IMG/VR virus record: IMGVR_UViG_3300038701_000434
Span: 1 to 35,428 of that record
DNA from: a virus
Direction: 5' to 3' (one strand)
DNA length: 35,428 nucleotides
Below the pieces are notes generated by a model. That model made no database searches and was not told where the DNA came from. It was given only the letters and a program-made list of their open reading frames with translations. A program made the translations under genes and the position numbers. Shown in pieces: positions 13,425 through 35,006 of this stretch (within the stretch, counting starts at the first letter, position 1; the number at the start of each line of letters is the position of its first letter).

Positions 13425-13473
13425 CAGGGATTGACGCAGGGACATGGACGTCCCGCAGTTTCGGAGTGACAGC

Positions 13474-13662
13474 ATGAGAACACAGAAAGAACTGATCGAA
13501 GAAGCCAACCGCATTGCACGCGGCGAAGTGGCGAAGCCGGTACAGCGCAAGCCGGTTCCGCCGAAGGTCGCGCCTGCGCCGGTTGTCGAAGAGAAGCCCG
13601 CGCCGGTCAAGCGGCGCGGTCGACCGAGGAAAGCCAATGGCACAGCAACGACAGCAGGATAA
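13474..13662 (+). CDS. Small basic Pro/Lys-rich protein with AT-hook-like motif
   Basis: A 62-residue protein with a short N-terminal helix (RTQKELIEEANRIARGE), a Pro/Lys/Val-rich linker, and a basic KRRGRPRKA segment resembling an AT-hook. GGAG at 13463-13466 favours ATG 13474 over the in-frame ATG at 13444, which has no useful site. It follows the capsid gene, where small head or DNA-contact proteins are common. DNA binding is only suggested by GRPRK. Confidence 0.55.
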   Translation: MRTQKELIEEANRIARGEVAKPVQRKPVPPKVAPAPVVEEKPAPVKRRGRPRKANGTATTAG

Positions 13663-29835: not shown

Positions 29836-30020
29836 TGGTCACACTCTCCCTCGAAAGGCGGCCAGCCGTACTCGCCGCCGCTGGAATGCCATGCTTCGAC
29901 CATCTCGCAGTAGAGGCTGCGGGCCTCTTGCGCGTCTTTGAAATCCTCGTTGCTGACGAACAGCACGAGGGCGAAGAACATCGCCAGGACGATGACCGCG
30001 ATGATGCTGGAGGCGCTCAT
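29832..30020 (-). CDS. Small single-span membrane protein
   Basis: A 62-residue protein with an N-terminal transmembrane helix (SIIAVIVLAMFFALVLFV) and a cytoplasmic or periplasmic tail with LYCEMVEAWHSSGGEYGWPP, a short motif seen in phage early membrane proteins. Overlaps both neighbours by four bases. Function unknown. Confidence 0.65.
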   Translation of the reverse strand: MSASSIIAVIVLAMFFALVLFVSNEDFKDAQEARSLYCEMVEAWHSSGGEYGWPPFEGECDQ

Positions 30021-30835
30021 GCTGTACCTCCAGATATTTCGATGGCTGTTTCAACAACTTTTTTTACATAAGTCACCACATTTTGCATGTCTCTTTCTGT
30101 AGCATACAATTTGCTGTGATCTGCGTATTCTGGATCAAAGCACTTTTTGCAAATTGCCATCTTTTCCAATATCGCTGAGTTTGACCCGCCAGTTTTGATA
30201 CCTCTGTTTTCATAAACACGCTTGAAAAACTTTTGTTCTATTTTTGACATCTCTTCAATTTTGTGAAGAACAAGACGGCGGTAAGATTGCATGATGTATG
30301 ACGAGTCATATTCGCCACTGAGCATCATAACCGAAGCCATGGCACGGCAAGGCGCAGAAGAAAAAACAGCGGCTGTCGTCGGACAAAGATCAATAATCAA
30401 TTGATGTCTATGCAAAACACCAGACTTTGCCATGTCGAGAATCTGACCTGGAGTAATGTTGTTTGAGTTGTAAACTTGCCTTGCCAACAGAGTGCAAATT
30501 TCACTTTCTCTTTTATCAAGACCAGTCAAATCTCCATAGCTACGCTTTGCATGGACATCCAATGCCGAAAAATTATCTTTGGGCATGTCTAGTGTAACCA
30601 TGAAGCTGACGGTCACGCCGGATTCGCAAACTGCTGCAAGCCTATGCTGGCCATCTTGCAATATGCCGTCGACATCAAAAGCCAATCCTTGATGAGTCAG
30701 TTTCCATTCTCCTCGGCGCATTGCTTCGGCCATGCACTTTACCCAGCTTGATCGGATTTTCCTGTTCTGTGTGTTGAAATGATCAAGGATGTGCTTTGCT
30801 TCTGCCGGATTGTAGGAACGGATTTCAGTTCTCAT
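30017..30835 (-). CDS. ParB/sulfiredoxin-like domain protein, AT-rich
   Basis: A 272-residue protein whose N-terminal part, RSSWVKCMAEAMRRGEWKLTHQGLAFDVDGILQDGQHRL, with DGQHRL at 61-66, is the phage ParB-like (ParB/Srx-fold) signature. The C-terminal 150 residues are helical with no recognised domain. Its G+C is clearly lower than all neighbours (by eye about 40-45% against about 60% or more), with many A/T-ending codons, pointing to recent acquisition. ATG 30835 has GGAGA seven bases upstream, just after an 8-bp hairpin. A regulatory, nucleotide-handling or host-takeover role is possible. Confidence 0.78.
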   Translation of the reverse strand: MRTEIRSYNPAEAKHILDHFNTQNRKIRSSWVKCMAEAMRRGEWKLTHQGLAFDVDGILQDGQHRLAAVCESGVTVSFMVTLDMPKDNFSALDVHAKRSYGDLTGLDKRESEICTLLARQVYNSNNITPGQILDMAKSGVLHRHQLIIDLCPTTAAVFSSAPCRAMASVMMLSGEYDSSYIMQSYRRLVLHKIEEMSKIEQKFFKRVYENRGIKTGGSNSAILEKMAICKKCFDPEYADHSKLYATERDMQNVVTYVKKVVETAIEISGGTA

Positions 30836-30852
30836 TGCGCTGTCTCCTGTGT

Positions 30853-30872
30853 GCGCTGGCTCAAGCCAGCGC
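30853..30872 (-). promoter_or_regulatory. Intercistronic hairpin before the ParB-like gene
   Basis: GCGCTGGC and GCCAGCGC (perfect 8 bp) enclose a four-base loop that holds part of the upstream stop codon; the Shine-Dalgarno GGAGA follows five bases after the stem. Same architecture as the hairpins at 31240, 31477, 31716 and 35023. Confidence 0.5.
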
Positions 30873-31220
30873 GTTGAAGCGGGTAACGCCGGTGATGCAA
30901 CCGGCTTCATCGCGGATCGCGTTGTCACGCGGTCCCGTTGCGGGCGCGATGACATCCTGCCTGGTGCTTCCCTGCTCCCGCAGAGCGCTCAGGACGATGC
31001 CGCTGACAATAAAGAACGTGTCTTTCTTCGGCTCGGGCAGGTCGATGACCTGACCGAACGTCGTCATCTGGAGCATGGGATTGACGCCGTGCCCGGCTTC
31101 GATCCGGTGCATCTCGATGCTGCTGGTCGCCACGCGGGCGACCCTTCCGGATGGCGGAATGATCTCGGCATTCCCGCCGTCGTGGACTACGATGGGATGG
31201 GGTGTCAGGTTGACTAGCAT
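30861..31220 (-). CDS. Conserved phage protein (NLTPHPI type)
   Basis: A 119-residue protein starting MLVNLTPHPIVVHDGGNAEIIPPSG, a start pattern I recognise from a widespread family in phage and bacterial genomes, with FIVSGIVLSALREQGSTRQDVIAPATGPR at the C-terminal half (conserved PATGP). Function is unknown. GAGGAG at 31234-31229 precedes the ATG. Preceded by one of the repeated hairpins. Confidence 0.75.
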   Translation of the reverse strand: MLVNLTPHPIVVHDGGNAEIIPPSGRVARVATSSIEMHRIEAGHGVNPMLQMTTFGQVIDLPEPKKDTFFIVSGIVLSALREQGSTRQDVIAPATGPRDNAIRDEAGCITGVTRFNALA

Positions 31221-31239
31221 CTTCGTTGCTCCTCAATGT

Positions 31240-31255
31240 GCGCCGTCCCTGGCGC
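31240..31255 (-). repeat. Intercistronic hairpin repeat A
   Basis: GCGCC-GTCCCT-GGCGC (5-bp stem, 6-base loop) with GGTTGG next to it. It is a shorter relative of copies B (31466-31500) and C (31704-31739), placed in the same way just upstream of a Shine-Dalgarno sequence. Confidence 0.6.
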
Positions 31256-31272
31256 GGTTGGTGGCTGCTGGG

Positions 31273-31455
31273 TCAGTCGACCCAGCGTGTCACGAGATGG
31301 CGCATAGCGCCGTCGATTTCGCGGTACTCGTGGGAGCATTTGCTCCCGTCGGCGAAGTCGCTATTGTCCAGCGTTGCCGGTGCTGGGACCGGCTTCGTCA
31401 GCCACTGACCCGTTGCCGGGTCGGCCTCGACGGTGTAAACCTTGATGTTGTCCAT
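31273..31455 (-). CDS. Small hypothetical protein (60 aa)
   Basis: Begins MDNIKVYTVEADPATGQWLT and ends in KCSHEYREIDGAMRHLVTRW. GGAGAGA at 31468-31462 serves the ATG at 31455. Acidic with one Cys. No family recognised. It is followed by hairpin A and preceded by hairpin B. Confidence 0.6.
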   Translation of the reverse strand: MDNIKVYTVEADPATGQWLTKPVPAPATLDNSDFADGSKCSHEYREIDGAMRHLVTRWVD

Positions 31456-31465
31456 TGCTGTCTCT

Positions 31466-31500
31466 CCTGTAGTGGTGCGCCGTCCGTGGCGCGGGTTGGT
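31466..31500 (-). repeat. Intercistronic hairpin repeat B
   Basis: About 36 bases nearly identical to copy C: the stem GCGCC (31477-31481) and GGCGC (31488-31492) around GTCCGT, flanked by GGTTGGT on one side and TCCTGTAGTG (Shine-Dalgarno side, read as CACTACAGGA on the coding strand) on the other. Differences from C are single bases that leave the stem intact. Confidence 0.75.
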
Positions 31501-31694
31501 TAGGGCTGCTGGACGATGACGTCCGCCAGGTTGCTGGTGCAGGCCTTGATCTCGGCCCGGAAACCGGCGGCACAGGCCGCCTCGGTCAGAGCTGCGGCCA
31601 ACCGCGGCTCCGTGCGCTCGTAGACGAACCGCGGTTCGTCGCCGATCTCTTTACTGATGTCGTCCATCAGGTACTGCATGAAGGGGTTGCTCAT
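31500..31694 (-). CDS. Small hypothetical protein (64 aa)
   Basis: Begins MSNPFMQYLMDDISKEIGDE with a helical C-terminal half (LAAALTEAACAAGFRAEIKA). AGGAGGA at 31707-31701 precedes ATG 31694. Two Cys residues. Function unknown. Preceded by hairpin C. Confidence 0.6.
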   Translation of the reverse strand: MSNPFMQYLMDDISKEIGDEPRFVYERTEPRLAAALTEAACAAGFRAEIKACTSNLADVIVQQP

Positions 31695-31703
31695 TGTCGT
31701 TCC

Positions 31704-31739
31704 TCCTGTAGTGATGCGCCATCCGTGGCGCTGGTTGGT
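31704..31739 (-). repeat. Intercistronic hairpin repeat C
   Basis: Copy with stem GCGCC (31716-31720) and GGCGC (31727-31731), loop ATCCGT. It shares about 32 of 36 positions with copy B, including the Shine-Dalgarno core, and stands at the same distance from the next start codon. Confidence 0.75.
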
Positions 31740-31742
31740 GGT

Positions 31743-31964
31743 TCAGGCCATCTCTGCGGCGCGGCGGACGTGCGCCCGATACCAGCGGCGGGCGTCCCGC
31801 TCAAAAGTTTCCGGCGTCGTCAAGACGGTCCAGCCGCCGCCGATCTGGCCGCGCTCGCAGCACTGGCGAGCGGGGCTGCCGTTGATGCTCACATACAGAT
31901 GCCCGAGGTTGGTCATCCCAAAGGCCAGGTACTGGTTCAGGGTCTTGCTGGCGATGGTCATCAT
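31743..31964 (-). CDS. Hypothetical protein, first gene after the leftward promoter
   Basis: A 73-residue protein beginning MMTIASKTLNQYLAFGMTNLG; SPARQCCERGQIGGGW and a basic C-terminal helix (ARRWYRAHVRRAAEMA) follow. GGAG lies nine bases upstream. First in the transcript from the promoter at 32006-32033, so it is probably made early and strongly. No family recognised. Confidence 0.6.
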   Translation of the reverse strand: MMTIASKTLNQYLAFGMTNLGHLYVSINGSPARQCCERGQIGGGWTVLTTPETFERDARRWYRAHVRRAAEMA

Positions 31965-32005
31965 GGTTGCTTTCTCCGGTGGCGTTGTTGTGGTCTACGG
32001 TTCCC

Positions 32006-32033
32006 ATTCTACAGCAGCAGGTATACACGTCAA
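32006..32033 (-). promoter_or_regulatory. Sigma70-like leftward early promoter with operator half-site
   Basis: On the minus strand, TTGACG (32033-32028) and TAGAAT (32011-32006) each match consensus at five of six positions, with a 16-base spacer. GTGTATACC (32028-32020) overlaps the -35/spacer and equals an arm of the palindrome at 2184-2212; CCCTTAGGG (32034-32042) lies just upstream. The first gene starts 42 bases downstream of the -10 box. Confidence 0.6.
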
Positions 32034-32050
32034 CCCTTAGGGACAAGTTT

Positions 32051-32374
32051 TTACCTATCGCCAAGCATCCGCCAAGCCTCCTCCTGCCCACGCGCCACGA
32101 TGACGGTGTGCCCGATGCTCGCCAGGTACCGGTGCCAATCGCGCTGCGCTGGCGATACAGTGCCGCCGCGCTGGCGCTTCATCTCGATCCAGATCAGCCA
32201 GGCGGGGATGAACAGGTCCGGGACACCAGCCGAGACGCCTTCCGCCTTCAGCCGTGCGCCCGTCGTGCGGCTGCGAGCCTCGCCGTTGGGGATGGCGAAG
32301 ATACGCACGTCGGGATGGCGCTTGCGGAACGCGCTGACAAACTCGCGCTGTTCGACGTGTTCTGACGGAATCAC
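32051..32374 (-). CDS. VRR-NUC nuclease
   Basis: A 107-residue stand-alone VRR-NUC domain (PD-(D/E)XK fold), of the kind that cuts flap or Holliday-junction DNA. GVPDLFIP supplies Asp53 and WIEMKR supplies Glu64 and Lys66; AIPNGEARSRTTGARLKAEG and SPAQRDWHRYLASIGHTVIVARG complete the family pattern. The start is put at GTG 32374 (MIPSEHVEQREFV) because of the GTGA overlap with the helicase stop and the usual family N-terminus; ATG 32419 is an alternative giving 122 aa. It pairs with the helicase and exonuclease upstream. Confidence 0.88.
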   Translation of the reverse strand: MIPSEHVEQREFVSAFRKRHPDVRIFAIPNGEARSRTTGARLKAEGVSAGVPDLFIPAWLIWIEMKRQRGGTVSPAQRDWHRYLASIGHTVIVARGQEEAWRMLGDR

Positions 32375-33975
32375 GCTGGCTCTTCGAGCAACCAGCGGGC
32401 TTGAACGACGCGGTGCCATTTTCCATCCCTCTTGTAATCGATCTCAGACGGAGGCGGTACGCTCTGCATCGCATCAGCGACGCCAGACAGCGTGTTATTT
32501 TGCGCCAAATTGATCGTGTCCATACCACCATCCCGCGCCAGCGTGAACAGGCGTCTGAGCGCCATTTCCTGCGCTGTGCCGCCGTGTGCGATGCCGAGAT
32601 ACTCGCTCACCGGCGGATCAGCAAGCGAGCCGTAGTAGGTGACGCGCAGCATCTCCTTCCCGCTGGTGCGGCTGGTGTGGACACGCCAGCGCCACGATGT
32701 CACGCGCATCGTCTCCGGTCGATCACCCATGATGTCCTGGTCGTGCAGCTTCCACCGTGGCGGCTCGCTGGCGGGAAACAGGAATCCGCAGGCCGGGCAC
32801 TGCTTCACGCTGGTGTGAACGATCTCGGCGCATTCCGGGCAGGTCTTGACCGGTGCATCGCCGGTGCCGTCTCCGGCCTTCTCCGGCGGCGTTACGTCGG
32901 TGATCGGTCCGTGTCGCTGCACCATGCCGACGAAATCCAGCACCAGGCAGTGATCGGTGTGGCTCTTCGGACGCAGGCCGCGCCCGACCATTTGCACGTA
33001 CAGCGTCGGGCTTTCGGTCGGGCGGAGCAGAGCAATCAGGTCGATGTCCGGGTAATCGAAACCGGTAGTCAGCACGTTGGCGTTCGTCAGTGCGCGGATG
33101 CGTCCTGCCCGGTAGTCGTCAATGATCCGCTCCCGCTCGCGCTTCGGCGTCTCGCCGGTGACGCACTCGGCGCTGATGCCTTGCGTCCGCAGGCACTCAG
33201 CTACGTGCTGCGCGTGATCAATGCCGACGCAGAAGAACAACCAGGCTTTCCGATCACCAGCCAGGCGGATGACCTCATCGACCACGCTGGTGTTGTGTTG
33301 GTGGGTGTCTACCGCCTGGGCAAGATCGCGCTCGACGTATTCACCGCCGCGCTTCTTCACGTCGCTGGCGTCGATCCGATGCGCCGTGATCTTCGACCGC
33401 AATGGCGCAAGGAACCCGCGCTCAATCAACTCCAGCACGCCAACCGGTTCCACCAGACCATCGAACAGCGCATCGTCGCCGATGATGTAACCGTGTCCTA
33501 ACCGGTACGGTGTGGCGGTCAGGCCGATGACGCGGAGCGCTGGGTTGATCTGCGCCAGCTCTGCCAGCAGTTGGCGGTATCCACCTTCTGCCCGGTGGCT
33601 GACAAGGTGACACTCGTCGATGATCACCAGATCGATGTGACCGATGCGCTGCGCCTTCGTCCGCACGCTCTGGATGCCAGCAAACGTAATCTGATAGCCC
33701 AGCTCTTTCTTGCCCATGCTGGCGGAGCAGATGCCCAGCGGTGCTTGCGGCCAGTGCTGGCGCATCTTCTCGGCGTTCTGCTCGATCAGCTCCTTGACGT
33801 GGGTCAGCATTAGGACTCGCGTCTCCGGCCAGTTCTGGAGCGCGTCTTTGCAGATCGCCGCCACGATGTGACTCTTGCCTGCGCCGGTCGGCAGCACCAG
33901 GCAGGGATGGCCGTCGTGACGGCGCATCCAGTCGTACACCATGTCGATGGCGCGTTGCTGGTAATCGCGGAGCAT
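32371..33975 (-). CDS. SF2 DEAD/DEAH-type helicase with zinc ribbon
   Basis: A 534-residue superfamily 2 ATPase. Q-motif-like LRDYQQRAI, Walker A PTGAGKS at 29-35, DECH at 120-123, TATPYR as motif III, NVLTTGFDYPDID and QMVGRGLRP as motifs V and VI. After the helicase core, CPECAEIVHTSVKQCPACGF (about 375-395) is a four-Cys zinc ribbon, then a beta-rich C-terminal domain of about 130 residues. Start at ATG 33975 shares a base with the upstream stop (TGATG). Probably acts in replication, repair or recombination with the flanking nucleases. Confidence 0.9.
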   Translation of the reverse strand: MLRDYQQRAIDMVYDWMRRHDGHPCLVLPTGAGKSHIVAAICKDALQNWPETRVLMLTHVKELIEQNAEKMRQHWPQAPLGICSASMGKKELGYQITFAGIQSVRTKAQRIGHIDLVIIDECHLVSHRAEGGYRQLLAELAQINPALRVIGLTATPYRLGHGYIIGDDALFDGLVEPVGVLELIERGFLAPLRSKITAHRIDASDVKKRGGEYVERDLAQAVDTHQHNTSVVDEVIRLAGDRKAWLFFCVGIDHAQHVAECLRTQGISAECVTGETPKRERERIIDDYRAGRIRALTNANVLTTGFDYPDIDLIALLRPTESPTLYVQMVGRGLRPKSHTDHCLVLDFVGMVQRHGPITDVTPPEKAGDGTGDAPVKTCPECAEIVHTSVKQCPACGFLFPASEPPRWKLHDQDIMGDRPETMRVTSWRWRVHTSRTSGKEMLRVTYYGSLADPPVSEYLGIAHGGTAQEMALRRLFTLARDGGMDTINLAQNNTLSGVADAMQSVPPPSEIDYKRDGKWHRVVQARWLLEEPA

Positions 33976-35006
33976 CACCGCACCACCCTTGCGCCGAAAG
34001 TAGCGCGGATGTCGTGGTCGAGGTCGTCCGCGTTGGCGCAGGCTTTCGGGTTCGCCAGTATCTCCTTGCTGCCGAACACGTGTGCATCCGGTTCGCCGTT
34101 CTGCACCGGCTTGCCTTCGATTTCGTAGACCGCCACGTGCGGATTGCTGCTATCGCGCAGCGGCCAAGGCACAAGGTCCGGGTGCAGGACATGACAGTCG
34201 CAACCGGCCTGCTGGAACTCCACCGGGATGCCGCCTGCATCGTGGCGGGCGCAGTGCCACGTCGAATCCGCTACGGGCGTTACGTGAGCGCAGGTCCGGC
34301 AGTTGACGTGCTTCGTTGTCCGGGTGTCCCAGCAGAAAGCGTGAGCGTCGCAGAAGCGGCACTGATACCAGTCAGGCGCACCGCCTGGGCACGGCTCTGG
34401 CATCCGCTCACTGACCGCCAGCCGCTGACCGCGCTCCACAATCGCCTCGGCGGCGTCTGCATCGTAAGCGACCCGCTCGATGTGATACCGGTCATCGTCT
34501 TTGCAGACAGCCACGTACAGGGCACGCTCAATGCCGGTTCCTTTCATGTAGACCTGCATCTGTGCCCAATGCTCTGGCTTGGCCTTCTCCACGCCATTCG
34601 CCAGCGCATCGAAGGATTTCTTGCTGTGCGTCTTGATCTCCAGAACGTGCCGGGTGTTCTCCGCACCGGGCAGGCCGGACTCGATGATGCCGTCGATCGA
34701 TCCGCTGACATGCGATCCGAAGACGACGCGGTGCTGCCCGCTCTCGTCTTGGCTGATAACGCAGCCAATGGCGCGGAGATCGTCGATCACTGTTTCCTCC
34801 TCCCGCTGCCCGCGCCGGAACAGGCGCAGGATGCGACCGGGGAACTCCGGCTGAACTGCCCATCGGAAGCTAAGCCAAAGCCACCTGTCGCAGTGGTGGC
34901 CAAGCGTGGATGCGCCCATGTGCGGGCGCAGTGGTTCTGTCTTCGCCTCGTGCGCCGCATCGATGGCGGCGGCGATAGCCTCGCGTGCTGCTGGTATCTT
35001 GCTCAT
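33975..35006 (-). CDS. Cas4/AddB-like PD-(D/E)XK exonuclease with Fe-S cysteines
   Basis: A 343-residue RecB-family nuclease. The active site is SGSIDG (Asp105) and LEIKTH (Glu123, Lys125), with KPEHWAQMQVYM as the downstream Gln-Tyr motif. Cys39 plus CRFCDAHAFC (Cys216, 219, 225) reproduces the C...CxxCx5C spacing that holds a 4Fe-4S cluster in AddB and Cas4. A second Cys/His cluster (NCRTCAHVTP to AGCDCH, 236-272) follows. ATG 35006 has GGAG six bases upstream. No CRISPR genes are near, so a recombination/end-processing role with the DUF669 protein is likelier than spacer acquisition. Confidence 0.85.
   Translation of the reverse strand: MSKIPAAREAIAAAIDAAHEAKTEPLRPHMGASTLGHHCDRWLWLSFRWAVQPEFPGRILRLFRRGQREEETVIDDLRAIGCVISQDESGQHRVVFGSHVSGSIDGIIESGLPGAENTRHVLEIKTHSKKSFDALANGVEKAKPEHWAQMQVYMKGTGIERALYVAVCKDDDRYHIERVAYDADAAEAIVERGQRLAVSERMPEPCPGGAPDWYQCRFCDAHAFCWDTRTTKHVNCRTCAHVTPVADSTWHCARHDAGGIPVEFQQAGCDCHVLHPDLVPWPLRDSSNPHVAVYEIEGKPVQNGEPDAHVFGSKEILANPKACANADDLDHDIRATFGARVVR

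Follow-up and report, generated by a model that had tools for sequence, protein, structure and literature searches.

The window, by which is meant the whole stretch of DNA that was analysed, is one complete virus record of 35,428 bases. On its minus strand, exonuclease, helicase and VRR-NUC genes are followed by a promoter-like site and by an operon of small genes encoding, in this order, proteins of 73, 64, 60, 119 and 272 aa (Table 1). All other sites from the promoter scan were disregarded. No intrinsic terminator, that is, a G+C-rich stem with a T run, was detected within positions 29900-32500. At the protein level, no match to the 73-aa product was found in phages, and a peptide-pattern search of IMG/VR returned nothing related to the 64-aa or the 119-aa protein, an ortholog of the former being found later in phage G001. 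The 272-aa gene appears by eye A+T-richer than its neighbours, as if lately acquired.

Table 1. Positions of the hairpins, Shine-Dalgarno (SD) sites, promoter-like site and open reading frames (ORFs) in the window
Feature	Position	Strand	Remarks
Promoter-like site TTGACG-16-TAGAAT	32006-32033	-	upstream of the small-gene operon; kept in phage G001
73-aa ORF	31743-31964	-	operon gene 1; no hairpin ahead of it; no family
Hairpin C, GCGCC-ACGGAU-GGCGC	31716-31731	-	between 73-aa ORF stop and 64-aa ORF SD; loop fits C-ANGGAN-G
SD GGAG of 64-aa ORF	31703-31706	-	its GGA begins 18 nt past the loop GGA
64-aa ORF	31500-31694	-	downstream of hairpin C; G001 ortholog, 51% identity
Hairpin B, GCGCC-ACGGAC-GGCGC	31477-31492	-	ahead of 60-aa ORF
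SD GGAG of 60-aa ORF	31464-31467	-	GGA-to-GGA distance 18
60-aa ORF	31273-31455	-	downstream of hairpin B; no family
Hairpin A, GCGCC-AGGGAC-GGCGC	31240-31255	-	ahead of 119-aa ORF
SD GGAG of 119-aa ORF	31229-31232	-	GGA-to-GGA distance 16
119-aa ORF	30861-31220	-	follows hairpin A; phrog_21731, function unknown
Hairpin D, 8-bp stem, UUGA loop	30853-30872	-	ahead of 272-aa ORF SD; not ANGGAN type
272-aa ORF	30017-30835	-	phrog_5931; preceded by hairpin D
Hairpin E, UUCG loop	35023-35040	-	ahead of exonuclease gene SD; not ANGGAN type
Fourth C-ANGGAN-G hairpin, GGGAC-ATGGAC-GTCCC	13439-13454	+	3' of major capsid gene stop; other stem than A-C
SD of 62-aa ORF (13474-13662)	13463-13466	+	downstream of the fourth hairpin

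The original prediction had placed hairpins directly before the SD sites of successive short genes, and this arrangement was borne out. Hairpins A, B and C each lie between the stop codon of one early gene and the SD of the next along the 73-, 64-, 60- and 119-aa series, 7-17 nt past a stop codon and 7-9 nt ahead of GGAG. The likeness between copies, with B and C near-identical and A a shorter relative, could be made more precise: B and C belong to a common 54-nt repeat with 83% identity and have CACTACAGGAG in identical form, while A and B share a 20-nt core (95%). The distance to the start codon, described as the same for all three, is 21 nt from hairpin end to ATG in B and C but 19 nt in A. 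The claim of stem-preserving base changes does not hold for A-C, because their 5-bp stems are identical; no compensatory change exists among them and the differences fall in the loop and flanks. Within the loops, variation is confined to positions 2 and 6 of ANGGAN, closed by a C-G pair.

The motif search elsewhere in the genome that had been proposed as a check did uncover another site, with a different stem. This fourth C-ANGGAN-G hairpin follows a gene identified as the major capsid gene by PHROG 247. C-G closes the ANGGAN loop in all four sites, and scanning the window for this hairpin type with at least 3 pairs gave none beyond them. The window contains five occurrences of the combined stem and SD pattern (A, B, C and one within-gene site counted twice), against 0.06 expected from shuffled sequence. 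A match at 34797-34827, inside the exonuclease gene and with a different loop, was rejected as chance. Considered singly, none of the copies has a notable folding energy (z -0.7 to -1.5), and Rfam at gathering score gave no match in the window or in five element loci.

Searching relatives, as had also been suggested, led to phage G001 (locus L090), with 88-90% DNA identity to the window over many structural genes. It has the same promoter but a different first operon gene, and a hairpin with the stem kept lies ahead of its ortholog of the 64-aa gene. At this junction the loop is AGGGAC, changed at its two N positions and nowhere else. A further ANGGAN hairpin of G001 precedes a gene whose product does not significantly resemble the 119-aa protein of the window. 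The post-capsid site is identical in both phages, with a different SD region. In a distant relative (capsid protein 33% identity), a UUCG hairpin occupies the capsid junction instead of ANGGAN.

The specificity of the loop was addressed across viruses. The exact 29-nt B/C element had no match in IMG/VR, and a query for stem GCGCC, loop ANGGAN and a downstream GGAG returned 89 loci with 83 distinct matches. A gene, taken to mean an SD-spaced ATG that opens a frame of at least 30 codons, was present in 53 of these 83. With the loop reversed to NAGGNA in the same stem, IMG/VR yielded 19 loci and a gene in 1 of 16 distinct matches; with the compensated stem GGGCC/GGCCC around ANGGAN, it yielded 107 loci and a gene in 85 of 99. 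ANGGAN is kept with a swapped stem and the reversed loop is poorly represented; therefore, the loop is conserved and the stem, which covaries across phages, is exchangeable. Since these scans had fixed the stem, other stems in the fetched loci were also examined. Stems never used for fetching contributed 16 more pre-SD ANGGAN hairpins, the top value among 90 loop-letter permutations (mean 3.3). The closing pair in these independent stems is C-G in 16 of 16, compared with 42% for permuted loops (p about 1e-6). When pre-SD CANGGANG 8-mers were selected with pairing ignored, at least 3 further pairs were found in 11 of 35, against 79 of 1416 (5.6%) in the permuted-loop control. Judged by these comparisons, the signature is in the loop and not in the stem, a point that the original prediction had overlooked together with the C-G-closed ANGGAN form of all three loops and the fourth site.

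Among 141 distinct viral elements, 124 start no more than 30 nt from an upstream ORF's stop codon. Downstream, 130 complete proteins of at least 40 aa form 107 clusters; therefore, the element is not tied to one gene. Loop GGA and SD GGA are most often 18 nt apart, within a range bounded by the search pattern, and the flanks of the element are G-poor (12% and 7%). Sixteen larger element phages, each picked for having at least one site, carry 1-3 sites (31 in total), compared with one reversed-loop control match. In another phage contig (L382), three successive ANGGAN hairpins with the GGGCC/GGCCC stem precede three small genes at 474, 676 and 922, about 200-250 nt apart, as in the window.

These data bear unevenly on the earlier idea of a mobile or selected 5'-leader module. 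Selection for a role in translation is favoured by the loop-specific enrichment, by the exchange of stems with the loop kept and by the intercistronic placement before unrelated genes. Mobility as a transposing unit finds no support: because stem, spacer and flank sequences vary from phage to phage, the element seems mostly to have a local origin or local maintenance, and close relatives may share it by recombination.

Hairpins of other types also occur before SDs. Hairpins D and E of the window are examples, the loop of D containing the 119-aa ORF's stop codon. Relatives keep a UUCG hairpin at the exonuclease SD (L006 4568-4588, L007 1402-1422 and L008 2011-2033, the last with a different stem), and GCCGGGGC-UUCG-GCCCCGGC hairpins stand ahead of SDs in L012, L014, L015, L018, L026 and L054, relatives of the window's exonuclease phages. 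In one phage set, GCGCC-A-GNRA-U-GGCGC precedes the SD of mostly 130-180-aa genes (L429, L433, L437, L448, L452, L468, L489, L491, L494 and L504). A free-hexaloop scan gave, in 103 distinct cases among the matches listed, 3 ANGGAN loops (0.4 expected), 10 C-UUCG-G and about 10 A-GNRA-U. Pre-SD hairpins are thus a broader phage habit, of which ANGGAN is one selected subset. Like the ANGGAN element, the UUCG/GNRA hairpins are placed between stop and SD; unlike it, they are stable tetraloops without GGA and probably serve another function.

This abundance gives substance to the strongest competing explanation, in which any stable hairpin between stop and SD would help, by blocking exonucleases, keeping termination and initiation apart or leaving the SD open, and the loop would be secondary. 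UUCG and A-GNRA-U loops are common before SDs among the matches listed in an unbiased scan, the window itself has such hairpins in D and E, and the UUCG hairpin at the homologous capsid junction of the distant relative is its best support. Nevertheless, a generic stem-loop leaves unexplained the excess of ANGGAN over reversed and permuted loops, the constant C-G closure and the variation at N positions only. Besides, ANGGAN loops are not specially stable by prediction and show no notable energy bonus. This explanation is accordingly regarded as unlikely, although it retains more credit than the others considered below.

A closer counterpart is offered by the CsrA/RsmA family of regulators. The RsmE/CsrA site is a hairpin with an ANGGAN hexaloop, and in vitro selection (SELEX) for CsrA gave the consensus RUACARGGAUGU, in which the loop-adjacent residues are paired (PMC7652899). 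The loop of RsmZ-2 is AAGGAU (PMC4066749). A CsrA dimer bridges two sites that are 10-63 nt apart, best at about 18 nt (PMC7652899), and the 16-18 nt between loop GGA and SD GGA at A-C fall inside this range. Like the CsrA/RsmA/RsmE sites of mRNA leaders and of CsrB/RsmZ-type RNAs, the phage element is a C-G-closed ANGGAN hexaloop, and it stands likewise just before the ribosome site, where the SD provides a second GGA about 18 nt off. Unlike CsrA/RsmA/RsmE leader sites, it is located between operon genes, ahead of non-homologous genes and in many phages. A further difference concerns the stem, with five G-C-rich pairs in the phage hairpins.

On this basis, the hairpins are fairly probably portable intercistronic target sites of CsrA/RsmA, through which the host protein would throttle translation of the next gene. 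One face of the host CsrA dimer would hold the ANGGAN loop, and the other would take the SD GGA about 18 nt downstream, or else the nearby ribosome site would be blocked. Binding of this kind would be expected to repress the next gene rather than to stabilise the message or activate it, so that its translation would be lowered or conditioned relative to the preceding gene on the same transcript. Phage gene dosage would in this way be tied to the free CsrA of the host, which would be its physiological use. The window record has no CsrA gene, and its own host presumably supplies the protein.

Several observations weigh against the CsrA reading. The second GGA is a plain SD, present at any such gene, and the five G-C-rich pairs are to be compared with four or fewer contiguous pairs in most CsrA SELEX hairpins (PMC7652899). 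Loop position 6 is mostly C or U in the elements, beyond what the consensus demands. UUCG and A-GNRA-U loops are found before SDs in phages as well, and ANGGAN, at only 3 of the 103 listed free-loop cases, is not dominant. Finally, the association with CsrA-encoding hosts described next is confounded with gammaproteobacterial ancestry.

In a scan of bacterial genomes, copies were found, among the matches listed, in prophage-type modules with exonuclease VIII, single-strand binding protein and Gp157, for instance in Thiocapsa and Competibacteraceae/Contendobacter; intercistronic copies also occur in Halomonas and Aliidiomarina. All eight genomes with clear prophage-type copies among the matches listed (Thiocapsa, Halomonas, Aliidiomarina, Competibacteraceae/Contendobacter and a Proteobacteria MAG) encode CsrA. 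Again among the matches listed, CsrA is encoded by 10 of 12 genomes with an intercistronic-type match, three of which (Curtobacterium, Nevskia and Flavobacteriales) are doubtful as elements, versus 13 of 47 with other matches, a comparison confounded with taxonomy. Several copies lie in prophage recombination modules of Competibacteraceae/Contendobacter and a related MAG (L187, L179, L228, L259 and L271), where they precede exonuclease VIII and DUF1351-like genes. Many other bacterial matches were excluded as REP-like palindromes or as coding or other chance matches. The match in Alteromonas R9Y1 was rejected as well, lying between convergent genes with no SD after it on its strand.

The hairpin core also lies between genes of named phages that infect Enterobacter, Xanthomonas, Shewanella and Pseudomonas, with Enterobacter phage phiT5282EW (PQ352032) and Pseudomonas phage HRDY3 (PQ015379) among the isolated carriers, the SD being further downstream of the core in the Xanthomonas phages. 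The reversed-loop query had no match in these named carriers. Left out of this set were the matches of Pseudomonas SM1/PaMx31, which comprise spacer and SD only and do not cover the hairpin, Salmonella SHP1, also matched by the reversed-loop control, and Pseudomonas Lana, whose match is in a 500-bp non-coding stretch with no start nearby.

A chromosomal case was observed in Stenotrophomonas, where two consecutive C-ANGGAN-G hairpins (GCCC-AGGGAT-GGGC, then GCGCC-ACGGAU-GGCGC) stand ahead of the recX SD across many species (L182, L188, L190, L245, L291 and others). In strain D457, csrA is located a few kb from recX. From its leader, Stenotrophomonas recX looks like a gene under RsmA control.

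Phages do encode RNA-binding regulators of RegB-like or coat-like type, and a phage-encoded protein or nuclease of this sort could recognise the loop GGA. Own CsrA is encoded by 2 of 40 element phages (G013:43019-43174 and G036:15946-16098; L294 and L295). However, no protein family is common to all 17 element phages compared (maximum 9 of 17), and the named carriers are unrelated. The lack of a RegB match is a weak argument, as control genomes gave no match either. The lack of a common family and the presence of CsrA in only 2 of 40 therefore point to a host factor, and a phage-encoded binder is very improbable.

Boundary sequences of lambdoid phages have been proposed as recombination linkers, and the hairpins could similarly be short common sequences at gene borders for shuffling small genes. 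A-C do have common flanks besides the hairpin, and the operon neighbours differ in G001 while the hairpins stay; nonetheless, a linker acting by homology has no need of a constant loop pattern amid varying stems, spacers and flanks, and this account is given hardly any credence. Least probable of all is a standby or decoy ribosome site whose GGA loop, SD-like when AAGGA, would recruit or hold the 30S subunit, since GGAC/GGAU loops prevail over GGAG/GGAGG and strict C-G closure would be unneeded.

Repeats beside SDs have a precedent in the SAS and ESAS of cluster K mycobacteriophages, which accompany many non-structural genes (PMC3203893). SAS is a 13-bp sequence, GGGATAGGAGCCC, located 3-7 bp from the start, and about half of the copies have an upstream inverted repeat; ESAS consists of imperfect repeats of 17 bp and a variable spacer, with no ANGGAN loop reported (PMC3203893). 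The window element is like them in being repeated next to SDs, and the SAS GGGATAGGAGCCC is absent here at up to 2 mismatches. Among the papers found in an open-access collection, which holds few subscription papers, none describes hairpin targets of CsrA that recur at the junctions between phage genes. csrA genes themselves are carried by phages and plasmids (PMC7366521).

A more general proposition, towards which the balance tips only slightly, is that phages of CsrA-bearing bacteria may commonly carry 1-4 CsrA/RsmA target hairpins at gene junctions, with many independent origins. The host regulator would then act as a translation dial in polycistronic mRNAs, and the sites may draw CsrA from host targets during infection. 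The small number of sites per genome makes a role as CsrA sponge less likely, though conceivable for abundant transcripts. The motif is simple enough for immediate annotation of phage genomes, and element-bearing laboratory phages would permit a direct test. CsrA/RsmA is a main post-transcriptional switch of gammaproteobacteria and, if these sites bind it, phage expression would be wired to the growth state of the host.
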